64,000 nucleotides of DNA from assembly GCA_023264995.1 (NCBI GenBank), contig JAHFUR010000022.1:1-64000 (forward strand), written 5' to 3'. The notes beneath the pieces are model-generated. The model had not been told where the DNA came from and searched no databases. It saw nothing but the letters and a program-made list of their open reading frames with translations. Source of the stretch: Acidimicrobiia bacterium (lineage in GTDB: Bacteria > Actinomycetota > Acidimicrobiia > Acidimicrobiales > AC-14). Positions 7,919-22,035 of the stretch are shown piece after piece; the stretch's first letter is position 1; each line of letters starts with the position of its first letter. A program made the translations under genes and the position numbers.

Positions 7919-8499
7919 CAGTCTCCTTGGGCTGGCGGAGGCTGGTCTGCCTGCGATTCTCGGGCACGTTCTCGCAGCTGGTACAGCTCGGGCAGCGCCT
8001 CGTGGTCCTTTGGTCGGTCGGCCCATTCCTTCGAGGCAACGATGTCAGCAATGCCCGCGACTCGGATGCTGATGCCGGCGTAGTCAAGCCGTTGGGCCCT
8101 ACCCGCCAGTTCCTCGTAACGGCGGTGGCGCCCATGGCGGTCGGGGATGTCGACGAGGATGTCGACATCGCCGGCGTCGGTTCGCCACGTGGAGATCTCC
8201 ATGCGGCCAAGCGATGTGGCGTCGAGACGCGTAGGAAGGGCTGCGGCCTCGGCATCAGAGAGCCCCTCCACGCGAAGCCGCGCATGCAACTCCAGCATCG
8301 CCGCCGCCAGCCGCTCGAAGTTGTCCACCGTTCGCCGGACAAGGCAATCGGCGTCACCGGTCGGGCGAACGGCTCCGTAGGCCCGGGCGGCCACTCCTCC
8401 GACCACCAGATACTCGAGTCCGTGCCGGTCGAAAACCTCAATGAGGCGGTGGATATCAGGTTCGAGAACGGAGCTCGTCCTGGCGTCTGAAGATCTCAT
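7918..8499 (-). CDS. Nucleotidyltransferase-fold protein (AbiEii/type IV-toxin-like)
   Basis: About 193 residues from ATG 8499. The segment HGLEYLVVGGVAARAYGAVR followed by TGDADCLV is the nucleotidyltransferase-fold active site (GGxAAxxxG...DxD), as in AbiEii-like and related NTases. DVDILVDIPDRHG supplies the third acidic residue. The C-terminal part (IRVAGIADIVASKEWADRPKD) matches the helical end seen in this group. It overlaps the upstream small gene by 44 bases, so the two form a pair resembling a TA module. The substrate is unknown; related toxins modify tRNA or use GTP. Confidence 0.7.
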   Translation of the reverse strand: MRSSDARTSSVLEPDIHRLIEVFDRHGLEYLVVGGVAARAYGAVRPTGDADCLVRRTVDNFERLAAAMLELHARLRVEGLSDAEAAALPTRLDATSLGRMEISTWRTDAGDVDILVDIPDRHGRHRRYEELAGRAQRLDYAGISIRVAGIADIVASKEWADRPKDHEALPELYQLRERARESQADQPPPAQGD

Positions 8500-8704
8500 C
8501 GAGACTGACCCCCGCCGTCCGATCGGCTTCGATCTCGGCAAGGAAGGCGAGGACCTTGTCCTTGGTGTCGAGCCGACGACCGTCCCAGGTGACTGACACG
8601 TCATCGGGGGTCGACGGGCCCGCGTGACGAACAGATTCCACCCACTCCGCCCCCGACACGACGGGAACGCTGTCCCAGTCGTCGTCTCGATGACTATCGC
8701 TCAC
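8456..8704 (-). CDS. Small partner protein of the NTase (TWDGRRLD family, putative antitoxin)
   Basis: An 82-residue protein from GTG 8704. The core DDVSVTWDGRRLDTKDKVL continues AFLAEIEADR and then the acidic/basic tail EIFRRQDELRSRT. A relative with the same core lies at 31706-31903. The start is set by -10 TACGAT (8716-8711) exactly six bases before GTG; the longer frame back to 8980 is not supported. The gene overlaps the NTase gene by 44 bases. The position is typical for an antitoxin, but no DNA-binding motif is visible and the role is inferred. Confidence 0.6.
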   Translation of the reverse strand: MSDSHRDDDWDSVPVVSGAEWVESVRHAGPSTPDDVSVTWDGRRLDTKDKVLAFLAEIEADRTAGVSLDEIFRRQDELRSRT

Positions 8705-8893
8705 TATCACATCGTACAGGCGCGCTCGGCGGTGCCGTTGGCCGGCGCCGAGGAGTTCTGTGACCTCGGCGATGGGATCAGGCGGCATCGAGATCGACCG
8801 CTTCGTCCGCGCAGCCACCCGACTACGGTCGCACCGAAGCGGGGGGCATCCGGGACGCCATTCGCACGGTGAAGGCCCAGAACTACTGTTCCC

Positions 8894-8957
8894 CATCCCG
8901 ACGCCGGCGTCGGCGGCGCGCCAATATGAGCGGGTGTCGTGGTCCGACGCCGAGCTC
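8894..8957 (+). repeat. 64-bp direct repeat, right copy
   Basis: Partner of 7855-7918 (58/64 identical). It includes the -10-like CAATAT (8922-8927), six spacer bases and the GTG start of the following gene. The intact downstream gene shows this copy is the original and the left copy the truncated duplicate. Confidence 0.7.
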
Positions 8958-9260
8958 GACGACCGGATCGAGGAGATCATCGTCGACGCCTACGGGGACG
9001 ATGAGCAGCTCTCCTCGTTCGCCTGCGTCCTCGACGAGCTGCTCGACGTGCCCGCCGGCGCCACCGCCATGGGCCAGCCCGTGGAGCTGACGGCGGTCGA
9101 GGACGGCGGCGCCCGCTTCGGCTTGCGAGCCACTGTGGAGGGCCCGACCGGCAAGTGGACGGTTGCGCTCGTCGACGTCACGGTCGACCCGGTCGCACAC
9201 CCCGAGGTGGCGATGACCGTGGCCGCCTACCGGCGCTGGCTGGGTGACGGCCTCGAATGA
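8934..9260 (+). CDS. Conserved hypothetical small acidic protein
   Basis: 108 residues from GTG 8934: starts VSWSDAELDDRIEEIIVDAY, continues GDDEQLSSFACVLDELLDVP and ends TVAAYRRWLGDGLE. It is acidic, with predicted helices at the start and a beta-rich middle (VELTAVEDGG, GLRATVEGP, WTVALVDVTV). No catalytic motif is seen and I do not recognise a named family. The start is supported by CAATAT six bases upstream and by the duplication boundary. The stop overlaps the next ATG (ATGA), so it forms an operon with 9257-10087. Confidence 0.55.
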   Translation: MSWSDAELDDRIEEIIVDAYGDDEQLSSFACVLDELLDVPAGATAMGQPVELTAVEDGGARFGLRATVEGPTGKWTVALVDVTVDPVAHPEVAMTVAAYRRWLGDGLE

Positions 9261-10087
9261 TCTTTCCTTGGCTTGAGGACTCCGCCCATATCCTCGGGGC
9301 GGCGACGCCGGACGCCCTGTGGCGGTACCTGGCCGGCAACGTCCACCTGCGGGCGATGCCGAACACCTTCGAGGCGGTGTGCGCGTTCCAAAGGCTCCAC
9401 AGGGACCGTCCGGCCCATGCGCTGCGATCTGCCCAGCTCATCTGCACCGACCTGCGCTGGCGGCGGGTGACCGCGCCCCTCATCGTCGACATCGAGCAGT
9501 CGGGCATCCTCGACGAAGGGGATCTCGACCAGCTCGCCGATGGCTTCCTCTGGGAGGACAAGCTCGCCTGGCCCGTACCCGAGCAGTGGCTGCGGGATGG
9601 CACAGTCCGCGTCAAGCGCGGAAGGCACAAGCCGGGCCGGACCGCGGTAGTCATCGACCGGATGATCCCTCCGCCGCTGCGGCGATGGGCGGCCGCCCGC
9701 ATCGTCACACGCGAGCCGCGCCAGACCGCCGACGTCCTCGTGCGCATCGACGGGATGGACGCCGGCGCCGGCGACGCGGCCATGGCCGGGCTCCTCGACG
9801 CAGCCGTCTCGCTCCCACCGGAAGCGCGCGAAGCGTTGACGGAGCTGGGTTGTGCCTGGCCGAACGGCACGGTGCGGCTGCGGGCGCTAAAGCTGCTGGC
9901 CGAGACCGACCGGGAGGCGGCCCTACGGGGGGCCGCCGACGACGCCTCGGCCACGGTCAGGGCCTGGGGTCAGAAGCTCGCCTCGCAGTTACCCCTGCGC
10001 GATCGACCAGCCGAGGACCGTGCCGCTGCGGAACATCAGCGACTGACGCGCCAGGCCCCCGAGCCGCAACCCTCTCTCTTCGACTGA
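9257..10087 (+). CDS. Hypothetical protein translationally coupled to the 8934 gene
   Basis: A 276-residue soluble protein with no recognised domain. Visible features are an aromatic N-terminus (MIFPWLEDSAHILGAATPDA), a Trp-rich central part (LWEDKLAWPVPEQWLRDG), a helical Ala-rich region from residue 150 that could be a HEAT-like repeat stretch (LRALKLLAETDREAALRGAA), and an acidic, Pro-rich end PEPQPSLFD. Its ATG overlaps the previous stop. Together the two genes form a small accessory operon of unknown job. The downstream neighbour is a decayed IS region. Confidence 0.5.
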   Translation: MIFPWLEDSAHILGAATPDALWRYLAGNVHLRAMPNTFEAVCAFQRLHRDRPAHALRSAQLICTDLRWRRVTAPLIVDIEQSGILDEGDLDQLADGFLWEDKLAWPVPEQWLRDGTVRVKRGRHKPGRTAVVIDRMIPPPLRRWAAARIVTREPRQTADVLVRIDGMDAGAGDAAMAGLLDAAVSLPPEAREALTELGCAWPNGTVRLRALKLLAETDREAALRGAADDASATVRAWGQKLASQLPLRDRPAEDRAAAEHQRLTRQAPEPQPSLFD

Positions 10088-11246: not shown

Positions 11247-14200
11247 TCAAGCGAGAACCTGGACAAGTTCGCCGATGACGGCGATCTCGCCGTCCTCGAC
11301 GTTCGTGAGAATGATGGGCTCGAACTCACGGTTCAAGGGCTGCAGCTCGACCGTTCCGACGATCTCACCGTCAACCGTTCGCTTGGCGCTCTGATATCGC
11401 TTTACCGTATAGGACCCGCCGTTCTCCGGGTCAGCTATGTCCCGGTGCTGGGCGAGCACGATCTTGCCTCCTCGCGATCCGGCGCCGACGCGACGGAAGA
11501 TGCAGTAGGCGCGATCAGGGATTCGAGGCTCCATCGAGCGCCCCATGACCTGGGTCACGAACATCAATTCGTCGAGCTTGCCGACACCGGCAACGCCGGA
11601 CACGTCGATCCACCCTTGGGCCTCAACTTCGTGCCCATCGCCGAAGTAGCCGGCCGCGGCCTGAAGCGAGTACACGGGGAGATGTGTTGTGAAGCGATCC
11701 TCGGGCTCCACCTGCTCCTTCGTCTCGAGTGCACGCAGCGACACCAGGGCAGCGCCGGCGACAGGCTCGATGAGCTCAAGGGGGTTGTCTCCGAACGCGT
11801 AGTCGACGTCGATTGCCTTATAGTGGGCTTCGCCGAAGCGGATCTTCCAACCCTCGGTCTCCCACTGGAGCTTCTCAATGTCGGAGCTGCCTTTGGTCTC
11901 GCGCACCAGGTACAACCGACGCCCAGCCGCCTCGTCACGAACGAATGCCCAGTCGGGGTTGTAGTTCCCGAGCGGCGTAGAGACCTTGTACCAATCGGGG
12001 AGCTTCAGGAAGAGCGGTACGTCCCTTCGCCCGTCGAGGAACAGGGCGAACCTCGCCTCGACCTCGGAGTCACACACGATCATGTCGGCGACGCTGTTTG
12101 CCACCGGCACCACACGTGGCGCCACCGTCTCGTCCTGGTGGCGGTCGCGGAACATCGACGCCGGCCAGGAGTCGCCGGTCGGTGTGTACACGATGTCATC
12201 GGTGAGCTCTTCGTAGAGCGCGCGGTTCATGCAGTCGGCCACCTGGTCGATGAAGACGGCGGGGTTCGCCTTCACGTCGTCGAGTCGATCGCATGCTTTG
12301 AGAATCCGCACGATCGTCGCCCGGCTCAGCGGCAGCCTCCGGCACAGCTCACGAACGACGTCAGGGATTTGGATGGCTGCCTCGGACTCGATCGTGCCGA
12401 GATCGATGCCACCCCCCCCGCCGAGGCCGGCGGCGCCGACGGTCACCACATCCTTCGAGAGATGGAACTTCGCCTTCTCGACCTTGGGCATTTTGTTGAT
12501 TCGACGAACCGCCGCAGCAACGACGGCACCGGTACCGAAGGCCACCCGGTACGAGGTCCGCAGGGAGATCCGCTCCCAGAGGTCGGTGAAGGCCGACGAC
12601 TTGAGCACATTGGCCCCGAGGTGCACGACCTTCTTCTCGCGCATATTCACGATCCGACCCGTGAAGGTGACGCCGGTCTCCTCCTCGATCTCCTTCTGAA
12701 GCTGAGCGGCGAACGACGAGAACGACTCCTTCGCCACGACAGTGAGCAGGTTCACCGCCTCGAGATGGCAGCGGTCGCCGTTCGTCATCACGGGCAGCCG
12801 AAGCCCGCGTCCGACCTGCTGGCGTTTCCGCATCACTGACTTGCCCTCTTGCAGGTTGCAGATGGTGAAGACATTCGGGTTGTCCCAACCCTCCGCCAGC
12901 GCCGAGTGGCTGAAGATGAAGCGAAGCGGCTCCTCGAAGCCGAGCAGTTCCTCCTTGCGCCGCATGATCCGTTCGAACGCGTCGGTGGCATCCTTGGAGT
13001 CAGCCTTCGCCTCCTTCGGCACGCCCCTCGCCTCGGCGAAGTAGCCGGCGTGGGCGTTCTCGACGGGCGGCAGCCTCGTAGCCACTGCTCGGAACCGAGC
13101 ATCGTTGCGAAGCGCCTCGTACTCCTCGACGAACCACCGGCGGAGCTTGGAGCCCTCGGGGTGGTAGTCGGCGACATGCTCGATGAAGAACAACGTCAAG
13201 GGTTTCATCGGCGCGGCGATCTGGCCCCGCTTCTCGAGGAGCAGCAGCTGGAGCTCCTTCTCGAAGTGGCTGACGATGGCCTGTCGAAGCATCAGCCGCT
13301 GCTGCTGGTCGTCGGTCTCGGAGCTCGTCGACCCGGCCGAGATGCGCCAGCCGTTGGCGAAGTCCACCACCCCCTTATCCGCAAGGATGTCCTCGACGAC
13401 CCAGCCGGCGTACACCTCGCGATGACCGCTAAGGTCGAAGAGGTCGTCGTCTTTCCGCAGCGTAATCTGCGTGAGCCTCGTTCCTTGCCTCGTCGCCCTG
13501 TGGATCCTGGCAGTCGCGGTTACGGACCCCGGCTGCGCGTTGATCTTCACGACATCGACGAAGGCTTCGTTGAGATCCTCGTCCTTCGTGAGGGAGAAAA
13601 CGCCGATGCGCTTAACCAGCCGTTGGTTGTAGGCGTCGACAGGCGTGAGCCGGTGGACAAGGTGCGCGCCCTCGGGTGGAGTGGCCGAGTACCCCACGCG
13701 GAAGAGTGGCTGGAGAGCGTCCACCGCCGGCACCTGCGTCGGACCGTCGAGGCTCTGGGGTTCGTCCATCACCACGACGGGCCGGCACGCTCGCAGGAAC
13801 TCGATCGGGGCATAGCCGTTGAGGGCATCGGTTCGCCGATGGATGAGGCGGTTGTTCGCGTCGCCGGTCATCGCCGCGATATTGATCACCATGATCTGGA
13901 GGTGCGCCGCAGTGGCGAACTGGCGGACGCGTCCAGGTGCGCTGCCGTCGTACACGTGGTGGTCGTACTGCAACCCGTCGTAGAGCTCCCGGATGTGATC
14001 CCGCAGCAGTTTGAGGCTGTTGAGCACACCCTCGCGGATAGCGACGCTCGGTACGACGATCACGAACTTCCGGAACCCGTACTTCAGGTGCAGCTCCGCT
14101 ATCGTGCGAAGGTAGACGTAGGTCTTCCCGGTGCCCGTCTCCATCTCGACCTTGAACTGGACCGGCATCTCACCATCGGCGACATCGCGTCGCAGGAGGT

Positions 14201-14462
14201 CGCTGATCGACGGCACCTCGGACCCGTCCTCCAGCATGACGGGACGGTCCTGGACCCGACGGAGGCTTCTCATGACGGTCTCCGCTGTCAGCTGTAGCGA
14301 GTTCCCGAACACGAGCTCCTCAAAGAGCGCTCCATCCTCGGCGAGACTGGCCATGCCGAGCCCCTGCTCTAGCGACTCCTGCCCGGCGAAGAGCTCGACC
14401 ACGGCATCGATCGCGTCGCGCTGGAACTGCTGGTTCGGGTCATACCGGATCGGGACGGCCAT
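11247..14462 (-). CDS. res: Type III-like restriction helicase-nuclease (Res) fused to an S24/LexA-type protease domain
   Basis: A 1071-residue fusion. Residues 1-about 600 are an SF2 helicase: Walker A METGTGKT (107-114), DEPQ box (233-236), GYSATPP and QQVGRGLRLP. A Res-type PD-(D/E)xK nuclease follows: NYNPDWAF, then LVRETKGS. Residues 929-1071 add a complete S24 protease: VYSLQAAAG as possible Ala-Gly cleavage site (937/938), nucleophile Ser976 in GRSMEP, general-base Lys1021 in SYTVKRYQS, and an UmuD-like end ILTNVEDGEIAVIGELV. The first base of ATG overlaps the Mod stop. Res cuts unmodified DNA in type III systems. The protease tail suggests control by damage-induced self-cleavage, which is inference. 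Confidence 0.85.
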   Translation of the reverse strand: MAVPIRYDPNQQFQRDAIDAVVELFAGQESLEQGLGMASLAEDGALFEELVFGNSLQLTAETVMRSLRRVQDRPVMLEDGSEVPSISDLLRRDVADGEMPVQFKVEMETGTGKTYVYLRTIAELHLKYGFRKFVIVVPSVAIREGVLNSLKLLRDHIRELYDGLQYDHHVYDGSAPGRVRQFATAAHLQIMVINIAAMTGDANNRLIHRRTDALNGYAPIEFLRACRPVVVMDEPQSLDGPTQVPAVDALQPLFRVGYSATPPEGAHLVHRLTPVDAYNQRLVKRIGVFSLTKDEDLNEAFVDVVKINAQPGSVTATARIHRATRQGTRLTQITLRKDDDLFDLSGHREVYAGWVVEDILADKGVVDFANGWRISAGSTSSETDDQQQRLMLRQAIVSHFEKELQLLLLEKRGQIAAPMKPLTLFFIEHVADYHPEGSKLRRWFVEEYEALRNDARFRAVATRLPPVENAHAGYFAEARGVPKEAKADSKDATDAFERIMRRKEELLGFEEPLRFIFSHSALAEGWDNPNVFTICNLQEGKSVMRKRQQVGRGLRLPVMTNGDRCHLEAVNLLTVVAKESFSSFAAQLQKEIEEETGVTFTGRIVNMREKKVVHLGANVLKSSAFTDLWERISLRTSYRVAFGTGAVVAAAVRRINKMPKVEKAKFHLSKDVVTVGAAGLGGGGGIDLGTIESEAAIQIPDVVRELCRRLPLSRATIVRILKACDRLDDVKANPAVFIDQVADCMNRALYEELTDDIVYTPTGDSWPASMFRDRHQDETVAPRVVPVANSVADMIVCDSEVEARFALFLDGRRDVPLFLKLPDWYKVSTPLGNYNPDWAFVRDEAAGRRLYLVRETKGSSDIEKLQWETEGWKIRFGEAHYKAIDVDYAFGDNPLELIEPVAGAALVSLRALETKEQVEPEDRFTTHLPVYSLQAAAGYFGDGHEVEAQGWIDVSGVAGVGKLDELMFVTQVMGRSMEPRIPDRAYCIFRRVGAGSRGGKIVLAQHRDIADPENGGSYTVKRYQSAKRTVDGEIVGTVELQPLNREFEPIILTNVEDGEIAVIGELVQVLA

Positions 14463-16345
14463 CAGACCGTCTTCATCGTGACGCCGAGCTCGCGGGCTCG
14501 GGTGAATGCATTGACCTTCACCGAGTCTCGACTGGCGAAACCATCCTCCAGAAACACGAGGACTCGTGACTCAAGTGACAGGGCAGCCTCGATCGTCTCG
14601 TCAGCCAACGCCGGCGACAGGACGACGAGAACGCCGTCCGCCCCGACTGTCCACGCCGCACCAGCCTTGGTCCGCTGCCATGGTGCGTCCAGCCGAATCC
14701 CCTCCTTGATCAGGATTTCGGCCGCCAATGCCTCTATCCGCAGCGCGGAGTCCACCAGCGTTGACTCACTCAGGCTGAATAGACCTTCTGCCTCGGTCGG
14801 CGTAGATGCCGTGAAGCCGCTCCGCCCGAGTGCAAACACGCGCAAGCCCTGTTGGTCGCTGACCTCGTCCATCGCTGCCCGGAGACGGGCGTAGGTGATC
14901 TCGGAGACCGTTGAGTAACCCGCCTTGCGCGCGTTTGAATCAGTTGGTGTCGGCTCTGGCAGGTTGACCGAAAGGCATCGACGACGACCGCCGTCTGTCC
15001 GGTTGAGCCCGAGTACCGCGTGTCCCGTCGTCCCGGACCCAGCGAAGAAGTCAAGGACCACGTCATCGCGCCCCACCGAGTACTCAAGGATCCGAGTCAA
15101 CAACCCGAGAGGTTTGGGGTTGTCGAACACCCTTCCGCCCAACAGCTTCTTCACCTCAAGGCCGCCGGCCTCGTTTGCGAATTCAGATCCGTCCCAGAAC
15201 GTCTTGGGTGTCGCGCGGCGCTGCTGGCCGTCCCGCTCAAGATAGTCGACTTGGAACACGTCCCATCGCCCGAGACTTCCGACCTGTCGTCCCTTCAGCT
15301 CGTTCAGACGAGCCTGTGCCGTGGAGGAACCCCAACGCCATCGTCCGTCAGAACCGTCGGACAGCCTTGGGACGACTTCGATCTTGTGAGCAGGATCCCG
15401 CACCAACGTGACCGACCCTGAGGCCTCGGAGACGTAGAACGGGTAGTACATGGACGGCCGGTCAGATCGTTTGGCGTTCGATCCGCGCTTCCGGAGCCCC
15501 TGCAGTCGGTAGCGATTGCCGTTCCCGTCGGTCTCCGGATAGTCGTCAAGATATTCCGCCGGGAGCGGCACACCTCGCGGCACGAAGTCATTTCGCTTGT
15601 ACCCGAGCAGATAGTTGTGCGCTGTTGCGAAGAACTTGTCGTCGCTGCGACCCTTGAGATTGCTTACAACCGTCACACATCCCAGGAAGTTCTCGGGTCC
15701 AAATACCTCGTCCATGACAAGCCGGAGATTCTGGACCTCGTTGTCGTCGATGGAAACGAATATCGCGCCATCTTGGGTCAAGAGGTTCCGTGCGAGAACT
15801 AGCCGCGGATACATCATTGACAGCCATCCGCTGTGGCGCCGACCAAGGGTGTCCGCAGAGGCTGCGGTTCGGTTCCCCTCCTCATCGAGCTGCCCGGTGT
15901 ACTCGAGGTAGCCGCGAAGACCGTCGGTGAAGTCGTCTCGGTAAACAAAGTCGTTACCGGTGTTGTATGGAGGATCAATGTAGATCAGCTTGACCTGGTC
16001 GTTGTAGGCCTTCTGCAGGAGCTTCAGGACCTCTAGGTTGTCGCCCTCGATGAACACGTTCTGGGCGGTGTCGAAGTCGACCGACCTCTCGAGATCGGGG
16101 ACGAGCGTTCCCCTACTGGGCGTGAGGAGCGAGCGGAGCGCCTCCTGCTTGCCAGCCCACATCAGCCCGAAGCGCTCGCGCCCATCGGTCGGTGCGGCCA
16201 CCGGGATGTCGAGCAGCTCGCCGAGACGGGTGGCATCGAGCACGCCGTCGGCGATCACGCCGGGAAAGAGGTCTTCGAGCGACTCTCGGTTTATGGCTGC
16301 GATTTCGGGTGTCGAGAGGTCCACCTTCTGCGGCTGATCGATCAT
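14462..16345 (-). CDS. mod: Type III (beta-class) DNA adenine methyltransferase Mod
   Basis: A 627-residue N6-adenine methyltransferase. Catalytic motif IV DPPYNTGNDF comes before the SAM-binding motif I DFFAGSGTTGHAV, the beta-class order used by type III Mod proteins. The central variable region (about 250-430) should be the target-recognition domain and also contains GRRHSGWLSMMYPRL. ATG 16345 begins MIDQPQKVDLSTPEIA; the longer frame to 16435 runs into the divergent promoter and lacks similarity. The stop overlaps the start of res by one base, so mod and res form one operon. Mod modifies one strand of an asymmetric site that cannot be predicted from sequence. Confidence 0.9.
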   Translation of the reverse strand: MIDQPQKVDLSTPEIAAINRESLEDLFPGVIADGVLDATRLGELLDIPVAAPTDGRERFGLMWAGKQEALRSLLTPSRGTLVPDLERSVDFDTAQNVFIEGDNLEVLKLLQKAYNDQVKLIYIDPPYNTGNDFVYRDDFTDGLRGYLEYTGQLDEEGNRTAASADTLGRRHSGWLSMMYPRLVLARNLLTQDGAIFVSIDDNEVQNLRLVMDEVFGPENFLGCVTVVSNLKGRSDDKFFATAHNYLLGYKRNDFVPRGVPLPAEYLDDYPETDGNGNRYRLQGLRKRGSNAKRSDRPSMYYPFYVSEASGSVTLVRDPAHKIEVVPRLSDGSDGRWRWGSSTAQARLNELKGRQVGSLGRWDVFQVDYLERDGQQRRATPKTFWDGSEFANEAGGLEVKKLLGGRVFDNPKPLGLLTRILEYSVGRDDVVLDFFAGSGTTGHAVLGLNRTDGGRRRCLSVNLPEPTPTDSNARKAGYSTVSEITYARLRAAMDEVSDQQGLRVFALGRSGFTASTPTEAEGLFSLSESTLVDSALRIEALAAEILIKEGIRLDAPWQRTKAGAAWTVGADGVLVVLSPALADETIEAALSLESRVLVFLEDGFASRDSVKVNAFTRARELGVTMKTV

Positions 16346-16419
16346 CCACTCATCTCTCTGCTCGGCGGCTTGAGTTGCACCACGGTAAGCGAGATGACAT
16401 CTCTCGGTATGGTGGTGCA

Positions 16420-19164
16420 GTGACGGACGGGGCACCCGGCGACATCCCGGTTCTGGAGGGTGAGGCCGCAGCAGCCGTCGCTCATCGCGGTTCGCATGTG
16501 CAGATCATCGCGGCCGCAGGAGCTGGCAAGACAGAGGTCGTATCCCAACGCGTCACGTCGCTGCTTCAGGCCGAGCCACCCGAGAGCATCGTGGCGTTCA
16601 CGTTCACGGATAAGGCTGCGGCGGAGCTCAAGGAACGCATCCGGCGGCGGGTCGCCGCCACGCTCGGCGAGGGTGCCACCGACCAGCTCGGCCGGCTGTT
16701 CGTGGGTACGATCCATGCCTACTGCTTCCGCCTCCTGCAATCCCACGTTCCGCGCTACGAGACGTACACCCCGCTGGACTCGAACCAGCTCGTCAACTTC
16801 CTCTACCGGGAGGGAACCCAGCTCAAACTGAAGCAGCGGTTCGGGGCCGGAAAGCTCTTCCAGGGCATCGACAACTTCCTGCGCAGCGTCGACGTTGTCG
16901 AAAACGAGCTGATCGATCCGTCGGGTCTACCCAACGGCGAGTTCCGCACGACGCTCCTCGACTACTACGAGCGGCTCGACTCGTACCGGTTCATGTCCTT
17001 CGGGACCCAGATCGTGCGAGCCGTCGAGGCGCTCCACGATCCCGAGGTGCATCGGCGAGTCACCTCCGAGCTCCGCCACTTGATCGTCGACGAGTACCAG
17101 GACGTCAACCCGGCCCAGGAACGCCTTGTCGCCCGGCTTGCGAAGCCCGAAGGGTCAGCAGACCTCGTCGTGGTGGGCGACGACGACCAGGCGATCTACC
17201 AGTGGCGCGGTTCGAACGTCGACAACATCGTGAGCTTCGTCGACCGCTACCACGGCGTCGCTCAATTCCGCTTGCTCGCGAACCGCCGATCCCGCGCCCC
17301 GATCGTCCAGCTAGCAAACCAGTTCGCCCAGTCAATTCCAGGACGCTTGGACAAGGAGATGGGCCCCGACCGCGTGGAGGACGGCCCCGCCGTGTCGATC
17401 GCGATCGGTCACCAGGACGAGCAAACCGAGGCCGACGCCCTCGCCGTCGACGTCGTCGCCCTCCACGATCAAGGCGTCCCGTACCGGGACATCGCGATCC
17501 TGGTGCGAGGCAAGGTCGCCTACTCCTGCATCCTCGACGCGCTGGAGACCTATGGCGTACCCGTGCAGCCTGGCGGCCGATCCGGACTCTTCGAGCAACC
17601 GGAAGCTGCGGTCTTCGGCGCCACCTATGCCTGGCTCGCCGACATCGACTGGTCAGCCCGTCGTTGGACACGCCGCGAGACGGTCTCACTCGACGACCTC
17701 GTTGGCGTCTACGAAAGCGTGTTCGCCATTGACGACGCCGGCGCCTTCGCGCTCCGCGACCATCTTGATGCGTGGAAGCCAAGGACGCTCATCGAGGACT
17801 TCGACGTCAGCCTGGTCGGAGACTTCTACCTGCTACTCGCGCTGCTCGGCGTTGCGGCGTGGGACACCAGCGACGAGTTGACGCGCAACCGGCTCGGAAC
17901 TGTCGCCCGCTTCGCGACCGTGCTCGGCGACTACGAGGGTGTGGCTCGTCGATCCCGGCGCGACACTGCCAACCCGGGGGAACAGGTCGGGGGCGCCATC
18001 GGCAGCGAGTGGTTTTACCGGAACCTCGCGTTGCTGCTCGTCAACTACGCGATCGGCAACTACGACGACTTCGATGGTGAGGAGGATCTCGCCGCTGACG
18101 CCGTTGCCCTTGGGACGGTCCATGGCGCCAAGGGCCTCGAATGGCCGGTTGTCTTTCTGCCGTCACTGACCGACGGTCGCTTTCCGTCTAGCCGCACGGG
18201 ACAAGCCCAGACCTGGTTGGTCCCGAGGGCCATGTTCGACGCCGCTCGGTACGAGGGAACCGACGCCGACGAGCGGCGGCTCTTCTACGTGGCGCTCACG
18301 CGCGCGAGGGATTGGGTCGCGCTGTCGTCTCATCTGCGAGTCAACAAGCAAGGCCGACGACCTTCGCCCTACTTGAAGGACTGCAGCGCGTTCGCAGGCG
18401 GTGGTGGCTACCCGACGGGCGTCGATCCCAGGCGCACCGAAACGCCCGACGTCGCTGTGACCTACAGCGAGCTGGCGGCGTACCTCACATGCCCACAAAG
18501 CTACCTGCTGCGAAACCAGCTCGGCTTCCAGGCTCCGATCCGGGGGGAGATCGGTTACGGCAACGCCGTACACCACGTGATGCGGGTCATCGCCGAGCAG
18601 ACGAAGGCCAACGGAGCGCTTCCCACCCCTCGGCAGATCAACGACCTGCTCACCTTCGAGTTCTACTTGCCCTTCGCCAACAAGCCCGCGCACAAGCAGA
18701 TGCGAGAGAACGCCCGCAAGCTCGTCTTCAAGTACGTCAACGATCACCAAGACGACCTTCGGCGGACCTGGGCAACCGAGCGACCGTTCGAGCTATCCCT
18801 GCAAGGCGTGGTGGTCAGCGGTCGGGCAGACGTGATCTACGACGGCGACGAGTCACACCCGGAGAACCTCGTGATCGTCGACTACAAAACGTCGACCCGC
18901 GGATCGGTCGAACCACTCCAGCTGCAGGTCTACGTCGATGCAGGGCGACGCGAGGGCCTGACCGTCCAGGCGGCATTCATCCACGATATGGCGACGACAC
19001 AACGGCATCCCGTCGCGGTCGACGATGGAGCTGTCGGCGTCGCGGAATCGACAGTGCGCGCTGCCGCCGACGCCCTCCGGCTGCGCGACTTCACTCCAGC
19101 ACCGGAGCTGGCGAAGTGCCAGGCTTGCGACGTCCGGTTCGTGTGCAAGTCGGCACTCAGCTGA
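16420..19164 (+). CDS. UvrD-like helicase fused to a Cas4/AddB-type nuclease
   Basis: A 914-residue protein. The SF1A helicase has Walker A AAAGAGKTEVV (about 32-42), FTFTDKAAAELKERI, VDEYQDVNPAQE, GDDDQAIYQWRGS and FYVALTRARDW. From about residue 685 a PD-(D/E)xK nuclease follows: Cys691 in YLTCPQSY, GRADVIYDG, the catalytic VDYKTS (D821, K823) and CQACDVRFVC (C900, C903, C909), together forming a probable 4Fe-4S cluster as in AddB and Cas4. It likely unwinds and degrades DNA ends. GTG 16420 is preceded by TATGGT plus six bases, so it is probably leaderless. It is divergent from mod and overlaps the end of the next operon by 8 bases. Confidence 0.85.
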   Translation: MTDGAPGDIPVLEGEAAAAVAHRGSHVQIIAAAGAGKTEVVSQRVTSLLQAEPPESIVAFTFTDKAAAELKERIRRRVAATLGEGATDQLGRLFVGTIHAYCFRLLQSHVPRYETYTPLDSNQLVNFLYREGTQLKLKQRFGAGKLFQGIDNFLRSVDVVENELIDPSGLPNGEFRTTLLDYYERLDSYRFMSFGTQIVRAVEALHDPEVHRRVTSELRHLIVDEYQDVNPAQERLVARLAKPEGSADLVVVGDDDQAIYQWRGSNVDNIVSFVDRYHGVAQFRLLANRRSRAPIVQLANQFAQSIPGRLDKEMGPDRVEDGPAVSIAIGHQDEQTEADALAVDVVALHDQGVPYRDIAILVRGKVAYSCILDALETYGVPVQPGGRSGLFEQPEAAVFGATYAWLADIDWSARRWTRRETVSLDDLVGVYESVFAIDDAGAFALRDHLDAWKPRTLIEDFDVSLVGDFYLLLALLGVAAWDTSDELTRNRLGTVARFATVLGDYEGVARRSRRDTANPGEQVGGAIGSEWFYRNLALLLVNYAIGNYDDFDGEEDLAADAVALGTVHGAKGLEWPVVFLPSLTDGRFPSSRTGQAQTWLVPRAMFDAARYEGTDADERRLFYVALTRARDWVALSSHLRVNKQGRRPSPYLKDCSAFAGGGGYPTGVDPRRTETPDVAVTYSELAAYLTCPQSYLLRNQLGFQAPIRGEIGYGNAVHHVMRVIAEQTKANGALPTPRQINDLLTFEFYLPFANKPAHKQMRENARKLVFKYVNDHQDDLRRTWATERPFELSLQGVVVSGRADVIYDGDESHPENLVIVDYKTSTRGSVEPLQLQVYVDAGRREGLTVQAAFIHDMATTQRHPVAVDDGAVGVAESTVRAAADALRLRDFTPAPELAKCQACDVRFVCKSALS

Positions 19165-20470
19165 GGGGTCGGATCCGATCCTGGTCGCGGAGCGCAGTCC
19201 AGAACCGAATGTGCGAGTCATGCCCTCGCCCGACGACGTCGGGCCGGCCAGGAGCTTGTCCCGCGCTCGGCACGAAGTCGGCGAGTGTCGAACCGACGTG
19301 ATCGCGCGTCAGGACGACCAGGCCAGCCTGGTGCCGAGACGCCATGACGCACAGCCGTCCTGTCTCGAGGTCGAACGCGGATGGATTGGTCACGCCTGAG
19401 AGGGGATGTAGGACGATCATCACCGGGCGTTCCAGTCCCTGCCAACGTTCGGGCGTGTCGACCCTGATCGCACCGCTCCAGGTGGCCAACTCCTTCGCGA
19501 TGGCTGCGTTCATGATCCGGTGGCTGCTCGAAACGCCGATGTCGGCGGGCGTGAGTGACCGACCCGCGTCTCCAGCTGCGCCCAGTCGGACCGTTGTCTC
19601 CGATGTGAGGAGTTCAGCAACAACCTCGGCGACCGCTCCGGCGAGCTCGTGGTCGACCTCGAGTGGAGGGCCGTGGGTCGGGGTCGGAACGGTCAGGACC
19701 ATTGGCCGGCCGTCAGCGAGGTCGCCGAGGGGGTCGCCTCGGGCGAGGTCCACGCCGCGCGCGCCGGGCTCGACGAACGCATGAAAGTCGAAGTCGTAGA
19801 ACGGCCGTACGAAGTCGACCGACTCATGCGGAAGACGTCGGCAGGCCGGGAGAGACCCCGTGTAGCGCTCGGGTTCAAAGGAAGGCTCGGCCAGCACGAC
19901 CTCGGGTGCTGCCTCGTGAGGCGCACGCGGCGATGTCTCCCACCGGCGAACGTCGATCGTCACCACGGGAGGGATCTGGCCGGGGTCGCCGATCAACAGG
20001 AACCGCTCGCTGAGCAGCGCGCACTGCATGAGATCGGCCCAGCTCATCTGCCACGCTTCGTCGACGGCCAACAGGTCGAACGGCACCCCGACATCGGTCA
20101 AAGACCATTTCGCCGTCGTCGCGACCGTCACGCCTGGCGCAGTAGGGAGCTGCGCGGTCGCAGTCAGCCACGTGACGCTCGCGGGAAAGCCCGCCGGTGG
20201 CAACGAGTTCTTGCTCGAGAAGCGTGCAGTCGCAACGTCAGGGTGGTCGGCAGCGAATCGGAGGCAGATGTCGTCGGCCTGGCTATTGGTCTGGGCAGCC
20301 ACTGCAATCCGCTGGCCCGATCCGACCAGCCTTTTCAGCACCTCGATCAGCGTGAAGGTCTTCCCGGACCCTGGTGGCGCCTTCACCACGGCAAGGCGGC
20401 CGCTGCCGTTGAAGTGGTCGACCAGATCTTGGCGAAGCGCCATGTACTGTTCTTCGATCTCACAGCTCAC
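19157..20470 (-). CDS. SF1B (Upf1/Dna2-like) helicase
   Basis: A 437-residue single-unit SF1 helicase. Walker A is KAPPGSGKTFT (30-40), Walker B LLAVDEAWQ, motif III IGDPGQIPPVV, motif V-like DTPERWQGLERPVMIVLHP and motif VI CVMASRHQAGLVVL. The insertions typical of large UvrD proteins are missing, so it resembles the small Upf1/Dna2 class. The ATG overlaps the stop of the upstream unknown gene, making it the last gene of a three-gene operon. Its last bases overlap convergently with the UvrD-nuclease gene. Polarity and substrate are unknown. Association with a Cas4-like nuclease suggests end processing. Confidence 0.75.
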   Translation of the reverse strand: MSCEIEEQYMALRQDLVDHFNGSGRLAVVKAPPGSGKTFTLIEVLKRLVGSGQRIAVAAQTNSQADDICLRFAADHPDVATARFSSKNSLPPAGFPASVTWLTATAQLPTAPGVTVATTAKWSLTDVGVPFDLLAVDEAWQMSWADLMQCALLSERFLLIGDPGQIPPVVTIDVRRWETSPRAPHEAAPEVVLAEPSFEPERYTGSLPACRRLPHESVDFVRPFYDFDFHAFVEPGARGVDLARGDPLGDLADGRPMVLTVPTPTHGPPLEVDHELAGAVAEVVAELLTSETTVRLGAAGDAGRSLTPADIGVSSSHRIMNAAIAKELATWSGAIRVDTPERWQGLERPVMIVLHPLSGVTNPSAFDLETGRLCVMASRHQAGLVVLTRDHVGSTLADFVPSAGQAPGRPDVVGRGHDSHIRFWTALRDQDRIRPLS

Positions 20471-22035
20471 GTCGAGCTCTCCGAGATCTGCGTGACGTCG
20501 TCGACAAGCACATCGGCCGCGCCGTCATCGTCGACGATCTGCACCGGGGCCGGAGCCTTGCCGTGGGTGAGCCATGCGCCCGGGCCGTCCTTCGCAGCCC
20601 AGACGCGTTGGCTCCGGCGCAGCGTGAGGTCCGCCGCGTCAGCCATCACGAACGCGAGCTCTTGCCCGATCCACGCGTGGTCGATCGGTTTGGCGGCGAT
20701 CCCGCACGCGAGCGGCATGGTCTTTCTCGTCGTCCACTCGAGCTCGAGCTCGACCCCGACCCCGCCCTCGATCAACCGCAAAGCAGTCACCACTGCCTCG
20801 TGGCCCCTAGAGCCATAGGGAACGAGGCGGCTGCTCTCTCGGACTCGGCTCGGTGCCTCGTTTCGAAGATCGACCACCCACACCGGGACAGTCGCTTTCC
20901 CGCTCCCGAGGTTCACCACCTCCGTGACGGTTGCCACCAGTGCCCGGCCATCGGCCATCGCCTCGCGAAACAGCGCCGGGTCGTGGTGAACGAGGTGACC
21001 GTCGTATCCCTCGTCGTTTGACGCATGGATCAGGTAGCGGGACGCTGCAGAGGAACCGTGATAGTCGGTCTCGGGATGCGCGATGAAGGCCGGGCCCTGC
21101 GCCGGGTCGTTCTGGCGGAGCTCGATCCGTTGGTGCTGGAACCAGAACTCCTTGTGGGCTTGGCCGACGAGGGCGTCGACGCCGGGGTTGACGGGGAGCT
21201 TGCTCTTGGCGAGGTAGGTGTACGCCTGCTCGGTACGGTGCCAGCGCCGGTCGAGCTCGACCACGAGGACATCTCGGATGAGAGCCTCGACGTCCTGCGG
21301 CGGCGCGCCTTCACGGCGGCCTGCCTGCCATCGTTCGACCAGGTCAGCCAAGTGGTCGCGCTCGATCGACGGGTCCATGGTCGGTGAGATAGTGAGCTGT
21401 TCCGCAGCCGAGGCCGCCACGATGCGGTCATCGCGGTCCCCGTGCGTCACGAGCCATGCCAGCTGATAGCCGAGATGGGCGGTTCGGGCGTCCTGTGCGG
21501 GAAAGGCGAACGCATTCGACAGGGCGCGACTGGCGTCGACCACGTGTTGATGACCAGTCCGGCTGCAGTCACGGAACATCCACCCGGCGAGCCGTCCCAG
21601 CGCCTGAAGGATGTCCTGGTTGACCCCGCCGAACCTCGTCTGCGAGAACGTGTAGTTCAGCTGGTGGAGCATGGCGAGGTGCTGTCCGTTGGGAAGCCAC
21701 ACCTGCCGCAGTTCGTCAACGGCGGCAGCTTGTCCCACTGGGTCGTAGGTCCAGTTATGCACACGCATGTGCGACAGCAGGGCCTCGGCGAAGTTTGCGC
21801 AGAGTGCACTCACGTCGTCACGGACGCGGCCGTCAGGGACGCTTTCGACCGTGGGCTTGAACCCGACTGTGCCCCAGGCGATCCCCCACGGTCGGGACTC
21901 TCCGGCCATCCGGACGAAGGCCACGATCATCGCCCGGTCGGGCGCTACAAGCGAGTGGTGCAAGGTCTCGTACCTAGGTGTCGGGGCCCCGCCGTCCCAG
22001 GCGCTGAGCTTCAGAGCGACATCTCGGATTCTCAT
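20467..22035 (-). CDS. Unknown protein between a nuclease and a helicase
   Basis: A 522-residue protein I cannot assign to a family. It begins MRIRDVALKLSAWDGGAPTP and has a long alpha-helical central part (about 100-300). In the C-terminal half it carries His/Asp-containing segments such as HPETDYHGSSAASRYLIHAS and GYDGHLVHHDPALF, then beta-rich stretches (LVATVTEVVNLGSG, VELELEWTTRKTMPLACG). No P-loop, HEPN, HNH or transmembrane segment is visible. It overlaps both neighbours by 4 bases (ATGA), so it is translated in fixed proportion with the Cas4-like nuclease and SF1 helicase. It could be the specificity or scaffold subunit. Confidence 0.6.
   Translation of the reverse strand: MRIRDVALKLSAWDGGAPTPRYETLHHSLVAPDRAMIVAFVRMAGESRPWGIAWGTVGFKPTVESVPDGRVRDDVSALCANFAEALLSHMRVHNWTYDPVGQAAAVDELRQVWLPNGQHLAMLHQLNYTFSQTRFGGVNQDILQALGRLAGWMFRDCSRTGHQHVVDASRALSNAFAFPAQDARTAHLGYQLAWLVTHGDRDDRIVAASAAEQLTISPTMDPSIERDHLADLVERWQAGRREGAPPQDVEALIRDVLVVELDRRWHRTEQAYTYLAKSKLPVNPGVDALVGQAHKEFWFQHQRIELRQNDPAQGPAFIAHPETDYHGSSAASRYLIHASNDEGYDGHLVHHDPALFREAMADGRALVATVTEVVNLGSGKATVPVWVVDLRNEAPSRVRESSRLVPYGSRGHEAVVTALRLIEGGVGVELELEWTTRKTMPLACGIAAKPIDHAWIGQELAFVMADAADLTLRRSQRVWAAKDGPGAWLTHGKAPAPVQIVDDDGAADVLVDDVTQISESST

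Follow-up and report, generated by a model that had tools for sequence, protein, structure and literature searches.

The type III restriction subunit (Res) encoded in the window, i.e. the whole stretch of 64,000 nucleotides analysed from an Acidimicrobiia bacterium (contig JAHFUR010000022.1), carries at its C-terminus a genuine S24 peptidase domain with a LexA fold and an intact Ser-Lys dyad (Table 1). As judged from comparisons across several phyla, this domain is a mobile module, carried by numerous defence helicases and nucleases that are unrelated to one another. We tentatively propose, with somewhat less than even confidence, that the module is an active protease that would cut its own N-terminal segment and serve as a self-cleaving off-switch of its carrier, which would amount to built-in restriction alleviation.

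Table 1. Features of the restriction locus and their positions in the window
Feature	Position	Strand	Basis or remark
Type III restriction subunit Res with C-terminal S24 protease module	11247..14462	-	1071 aa, ATG start
ResIII helicase motor part, residues 102-263	13674..14159	-	Pfam PF04851; similar to EcoP15I Res 4zcf
PD-(D/E)xK nuclease domain, residues 789-889, NPDW...RETKG	11796..12098	-	Pfam PF19778 RE_endonuc 5.6e-29
Mobile S24/LexA-fold module, residues ~927-1071	11250..11684	-	Pfam, fold comparison, AlphaFold2 model; missing in close Res relatives
AAAG, residues 935-938, candidate self-cleavage site in LexA register	11649..11660	-	Alignment
Predicted alpha-helix 933-942 containing AAAG	11637..11666	-	AlphaFold2 model
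Codon of catalytic Ser976, in GRSMEP	11535..11537	-	112/112 conserved
Codon of catalytic Lys1021, in TVKRYQ	11400..11402	-	112/112 conserved
Type III DNA methyltransferase Mod	14462..16435	-	PF01555 5.1e-31; PADLOC MTase_III 9.2e-146
UvrD helicase / PD-(D/E)xK protein, divergent neighbour of Mod-Res, possible partner	16192..19164	+	Start codon uncertain; helicase domain from ~residue 90

A type III Res enzyme with an additional domain

The reading frame, the AAAG stretch and the two catalytic residues named in the original prediction were all exact, with the gene on the minus strand. The ResIII, RE_endonuc and Peptidase_S24 domains of Res all exceed the Pfam cut-offs, PADLOC scores the protein as REase_III (1.5e-212), and its best relative of solved structure is EcoP15I Res (4zcf, 9.5e-52). 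The mod gene lies upstream and overlaps res by one base at position 14462. By its domains and gene order, Res is a complete type III Res enzyme, comprising helicase and PD-(D/E)xK nuclease, downstream of Mod. It shares the Mod-Res pair, the SF2 helicase and the C-terminal PD-(D/E)xK nuclease with EcoP15I and related type III restriction-modification systems, but differs by an extra C-terminal S24 module that is absent from EcoP15I and from the nearest relatives of the window Res.

When the Res body was searched without the S24 part, matches were found in 22 genomes besides its own, among 396 genomes of the same phylum. The closest relative (L104) is 55% identical, comprises 908 amino acids and stops just before the S24 domain; it ends ...FEAIKVDYAFGSKAGKLLEPSEAGP, and the window Res continues ...YKAIDVDYAFGDNPLELIEPVAG and then enters the S24 module. 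The remaining relatives that were inspected likewise end after the nuclease. These comparisons show the S24 module to be an addition to a type III enzyme, as close relatives do without it. An assembly or frame artefact was rejected, because the gene is a single uninterrupted frame and the same type of fusion occurs in many phyla.

Fold and catalytic dyad of the S24 domain

Pfam places Peptidase_S24 (PF00717) at residues 959-1067 of Res (4.1e-9; 36.6 bits at a cut-off of 23.3). An AlphaFold2 model of residues 899-1071, built from 70 sequences, has a mean pLDDT of 88.8 and matches solved structures of LexA, lambda CI and UmuD, including RecA-bound forms, with Z scores from 13.3 to about 10. The top matches are Thermotoga maritima LexA (3k2z, Z 13.3) and a LexA-RecA complex (8gms, Z 12.5), and residue 29 of the model (Res residue 927) aligns to LexA residue 75, where the cleavage-site region of LexA starts. 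A sequence-profile comparison of the domain with solved structures returned LexA only. Nevertheless, the domain is not classed as LexA itself, as it is without the N-terminal winged HTH and scores 19.7 bits against the LexA equivalog TIGR00498, for which the cut-off is 110.95; the true LexA of this genome is encoded elsewhere (L001).

Ser976 and Lys1021 are invariant in an alignment of 81 sequences. Because this first set had been gathered partly with a search pattern that contained the Ser, the count was repeated on copies retrieved from genomes by whole-domain protein and profile searches, and the outcome was unchanged. Across the covered module copies of the combined sets, both residues are kept without exception (112/112 each), which is what the original prediction had demanded of homologues. 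Its central observation, an active-looking S24 domain fused to a restriction effector, is thus confirmed by the Pfam score and the invariant dyad. The fusion is beyond chance, because motif, Ser and Lys are kept in more than 100 relatives and the model matches LexA at a Z score of about 13.

Compared to LexA, UmuD and lambda CI of peptidase family S24, the Res domain has the same fold, the same dyad and an Ala-Ala-Gly-like segment in the register of the cleavage site. In contrast to these proteins, it has neither a DNA-binding HTH nor the role of UmuD, it is attached to restriction and other defence enzymes, its AAAG segment is modelled as a helix, and 7 to 8 extra residues separate Ser and Lys (spacing of 45, versus 37-38). 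The window copy is without the W...H pair at residues 1033 and 1035 that is found in the rest of the family (W 100/111, H 101/112).

A module that moves between defence enzymes

With the S24 domain as query, relatives were found in nine other genomes of the same phylum, and at least 471 copies of the module were confirmed in the species-genome collection. Module-bearing genomes account for 10 of 296 in the phylum of the window, 18 of 294 in Planctomycetota (the phylum of L058) and 5 of 398 in Pseudomonadota (the phylum of L023). The carriers at 80 loci were grouped by carrier-versus-carrier comparison and named from representatives, so that single group members may be misnamed: 21 are type I HsdR, 13 Schlafen-group-3 (SLFN-g3) helicases, 10 ResIII_B (a label coined here for type III-like Res), nine Druantia DruE, eight HIT plus type IV-like enzymes, five DISARM DrmMI or type IIG-like, four type ISP and two HTH-S24 regulators, the rest being singletons or fragments. 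Beside one HsdR carrier of the window's phylum (L017), HsdM and HsdS were confirmed as neighbours. The singletons and fragments include a second clear type III Res (L046; PDLC03651, 2.6e-135), which has a TypeIII_RM_meth neighbour; in total, three type III-like lineages bear the module. Type I HsdR, type ISP, DruE and DrmMI resemble the window Res in having the same S24 module within one polypeptide, but they are unrelated carriers, and the module lies outside their published definitions in the literature searched.

In a maximum-likelihood tree of the domain, the HsdR label requires at least seven changes on supported branches, and the DruE and DrmMI labels three each. Sister pairs join different host families, such as a DruE with an HsdR (L044 and L066, support 99/89) and the type III Res L046 with an HsdR (L082, 98/92), while the window copy clusters with the ResIII_B set (96/86). 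These data show the S24 domain to be a mobile module that has changed hosts many times and that occurs on numerous helicases and nucleases of defence, unrelated to each other. Since the module appears indifferent to its carrier, a generic action, such as cutting or exposing a degron, is favoured over specific allostery.

A scan of the viral_contigs set returned one true module copy, on a Res-like protein (L130), along with ordinary phage repressors, and no copy was found in the phage collection; a phage origin of the module was rejected on these grounds. In two HTH-S24 regulators (L036, 5017-5796; L085, 7662-8426), the S24 domain nests inside the restriction-enzyme module in the tree, which may reflect exchange between regulators and restriction enzymes in either direction. 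A distant standalone S24 protein from Planctomycetota (L166) contains FEAVAAAGP, keeps both Ser and Lys and has a cysteine-rich N-terminus.

The candidate cleavage segment

The segment around AAAG is conserved throughout the module, with a consensus of AA[A/C][G/S/T]. In the combined alignment, P929 is kept in 107 of 107 copies and A936 in 104 of 108, position 937 is A in 101, C in six and V in one (n=108), and position 938, the presumed P1', is G in 93, S in 13 and T in three. The distance from this Gly to the catalytic Ser is 34-39 residues, mostly 35, in module copies and 38 in the window copy; it is 34 both in the LexA of the same genome and in a control phage repressor. AlphaFold2 models residues 933-942 as a helix with high confidence, and L933, A936, A937 and F940 form a conserved hydrophobic face. 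Taken alone, the pattern L-x-x-A-A-x-x-F is compatible with an amphipathic helix of structural role. Among 50 phage HTH-S24 repressors that served as control for the same modelling method, the cleavage segment (PVLGTIACGEP) appears as a strand followed by low-confidence coil, and the LexA cleavage site forms a type II beta-turn (PMC10020695).

The proposal that AAAG is the cleavage site is thereby weakened: its LexA register, its spacing to Ser and its conservation speak for it, but its confident helix, unlike the coil of the controls, and the Ser or Thr at P1' in 16 of 109 copies, which occur without loss of the dyad, speak against it. In short, AAAG is located where a cleavage site is expected, but lacks the expected shape in the model. 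The cleavage segment of LexA switches between non-cleavable and cleavable forms. By analogy, the AAAG segment may unfold upon a trigger; alternatively, its helix may have a packing role. Self-cleavage of the module appears likely.

A proposed off-switch and its alternatives

That the dyad never varies, although its carriers do so freely, is an argument for proteolysis, and because the moving unit includes a segment in cleavage register, the likeliest substrate would be the module's own N-terminus. According to our proposal, the module is proteolytically active and, like LexA and UmuD, would cut a segment of its own, P929...AAAG938, after this segment has rearranged out of its helical resting form. 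We are less sure that cleavage acts as an emergency off-switch, in which the module would cut its carrier when the enzyme attacks the host chromosome or puts it at risk, for example where DNA is damaged, RecA-ssDNA forms or the motor stalls. In the C-terminal form, cleavage would leave an effector that ends in ...SLQAAA, a candidate C-terminal degron, and LexA exposes a resembling C-terminal degron for ClpXP. The outcome would be portable, built-in restriction alleviation.

In three EcoEI-type R proteins of Planctomycetota (L176, 1999-4737; L177, 4456-7197; L178, 5156-7939), the module is located inside the HSDR_N nuclease domain, between its N-terminal part and the D...ExK motif, and a 73% identical homologue (L183) is without the insert. 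A cut in this inserted form would split the nuclease domain and thus sever the nuclease. Together with the terminal ...AAA as a possible ClpX degron, this favours an off-switch, and it is the main reason why an off-switch is preferred over release of the nuclease. The direction of the switch is therefore inferred mainly from these three related proteins.

The opposite direction, in which the intact module inhibits the enzyme and self-cleavage upon damage or phage replication frees a normal Res, as in UmuD activation, appears unlikely but is the strongest of the alternatives. Since the nearest relatives end right where the module begins, a cut between residues 937 and 938 would yield an enzyme that exceeds the normal length by a short tail, and the majority of copies are C-terminal. 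However, besides the cut through the nuclease domain in the inserted form, a single module would have to inhibit carriers as different as HsdR, DruE, DrmMI and SLFN helicases, and a nuclease freed upon host DNA damage would worsen that damage. Less probable again is a structural or docking module without self-cleavage, whose S24 fold would serve to dimerise the enzyme or to dock it on RecA filaments, with AAAG as part of a helix for packing; the confident helix, its conserved hydrophobic face and the tolerance for Ser or Thr at residue 938 agree with this, but a Ser and a Lys that are invariant over carriers and phyla would be needless for a purely structural role. We consider it least likely that the module cuts another protein, be it a product of a phage, a regulator of the host or a partner like the UvrD/PD-(D/E)xK protein, as the invariant dyad next to an apparently helical self-site and a fold common to signal peptidases, which cut other proteins, might suggest, because the conserved unit moves together with a segment in the LexA cleavage register and no partner common to all module carriers was seen among the neighbouring genes.

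For the proposed off-switch, a connection to DNA damage is conceivable, as the genome encodes LexA, RecA and ClpX. Control of the operon by a LexA box was rejected: no LexA-box-like site (GAACN4GTTC) was found near the operon, and the window-wide count of such sites is not above chance. Any SOS link would therefore be at the protein level. In the case of EcoKI, damage-induced shut-off of restriction by HsdR is achieved by ClpXP, and the degron is unknown (PMC4231737). The proposed mechanism would resemble EcoKI alleviation in that a restriction motor is shut off post-translationally in connection with host DNA that is damaged or unmodified (PMC4231737, PMC12707154), but EcoKI depends on an external protease, whereas that of Res is predicted to be built in; the link between both is by analogy.

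Neighbouring genes and further observations

Homologues of the UvrD/PD-(D/E)xK protein (28-33% identity) adjoin seven of the ten S24-bearing ResIII_B genes and, at the ResIII_B loci inspected, sit upstream of an N6_N4 methyltransferase. This gene order suggests a three-gene system of UvrD/PD-(D/E)xK protein, methyltransferase and ResIII_B. The restriction locus is adjoined by a minus-strand pair at positions 19157-22035, in which an AAA helicase-like gene overlaps head-to-tail with a gene for a 522-aa protein; the latter had no match in Pfam, PADLOC or NCBIfam. The pair is possibly a further defence operon. The RecA gene of the genome (L266, G000:C62, ~8166-10040) is split by an intein-like insert (...GVMYG/CQAYGTRV...FVDGVMVHN/SPEV..., with slashes at the junctions), which resembles mycobacterial RecA inteins.

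Conclusions

S24 proteases and each of the carrier families are already known, but their systematic combination is absent from the literature searched (subscription papers lie outside it), where no description of an S24/LexA-type domain on restriction, DISARM, Druantia or other defence enzymes was found. The fusion had originally been regarded as undescribed; this agrees with the searched library, but its scope had to be widened from one fusion to a module of general occurrence, carried by many defence enzymes. Whether a single portable self-cleaving module on type I, III, ISP and IV-like enzymes, Druantia, DISARM and Schlafen helicases couples host DNA damage to the destruction of defence enzymes, as a general SOS safety catch at the protein level, is a broader idea that we regard as possible yet rather doubtful.

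Our understanding of how restriction and other defence enzymes spare the host that encodes them is incomplete, and in the case of EcoKI the responsible protease has been identified but not its degron. If many defence enzymes contain a conserved protease domain, this would offer a common and directly testable answer to the question of self-protection, and a module with the proposed role would link immunity to the SOS pathway through proteins.
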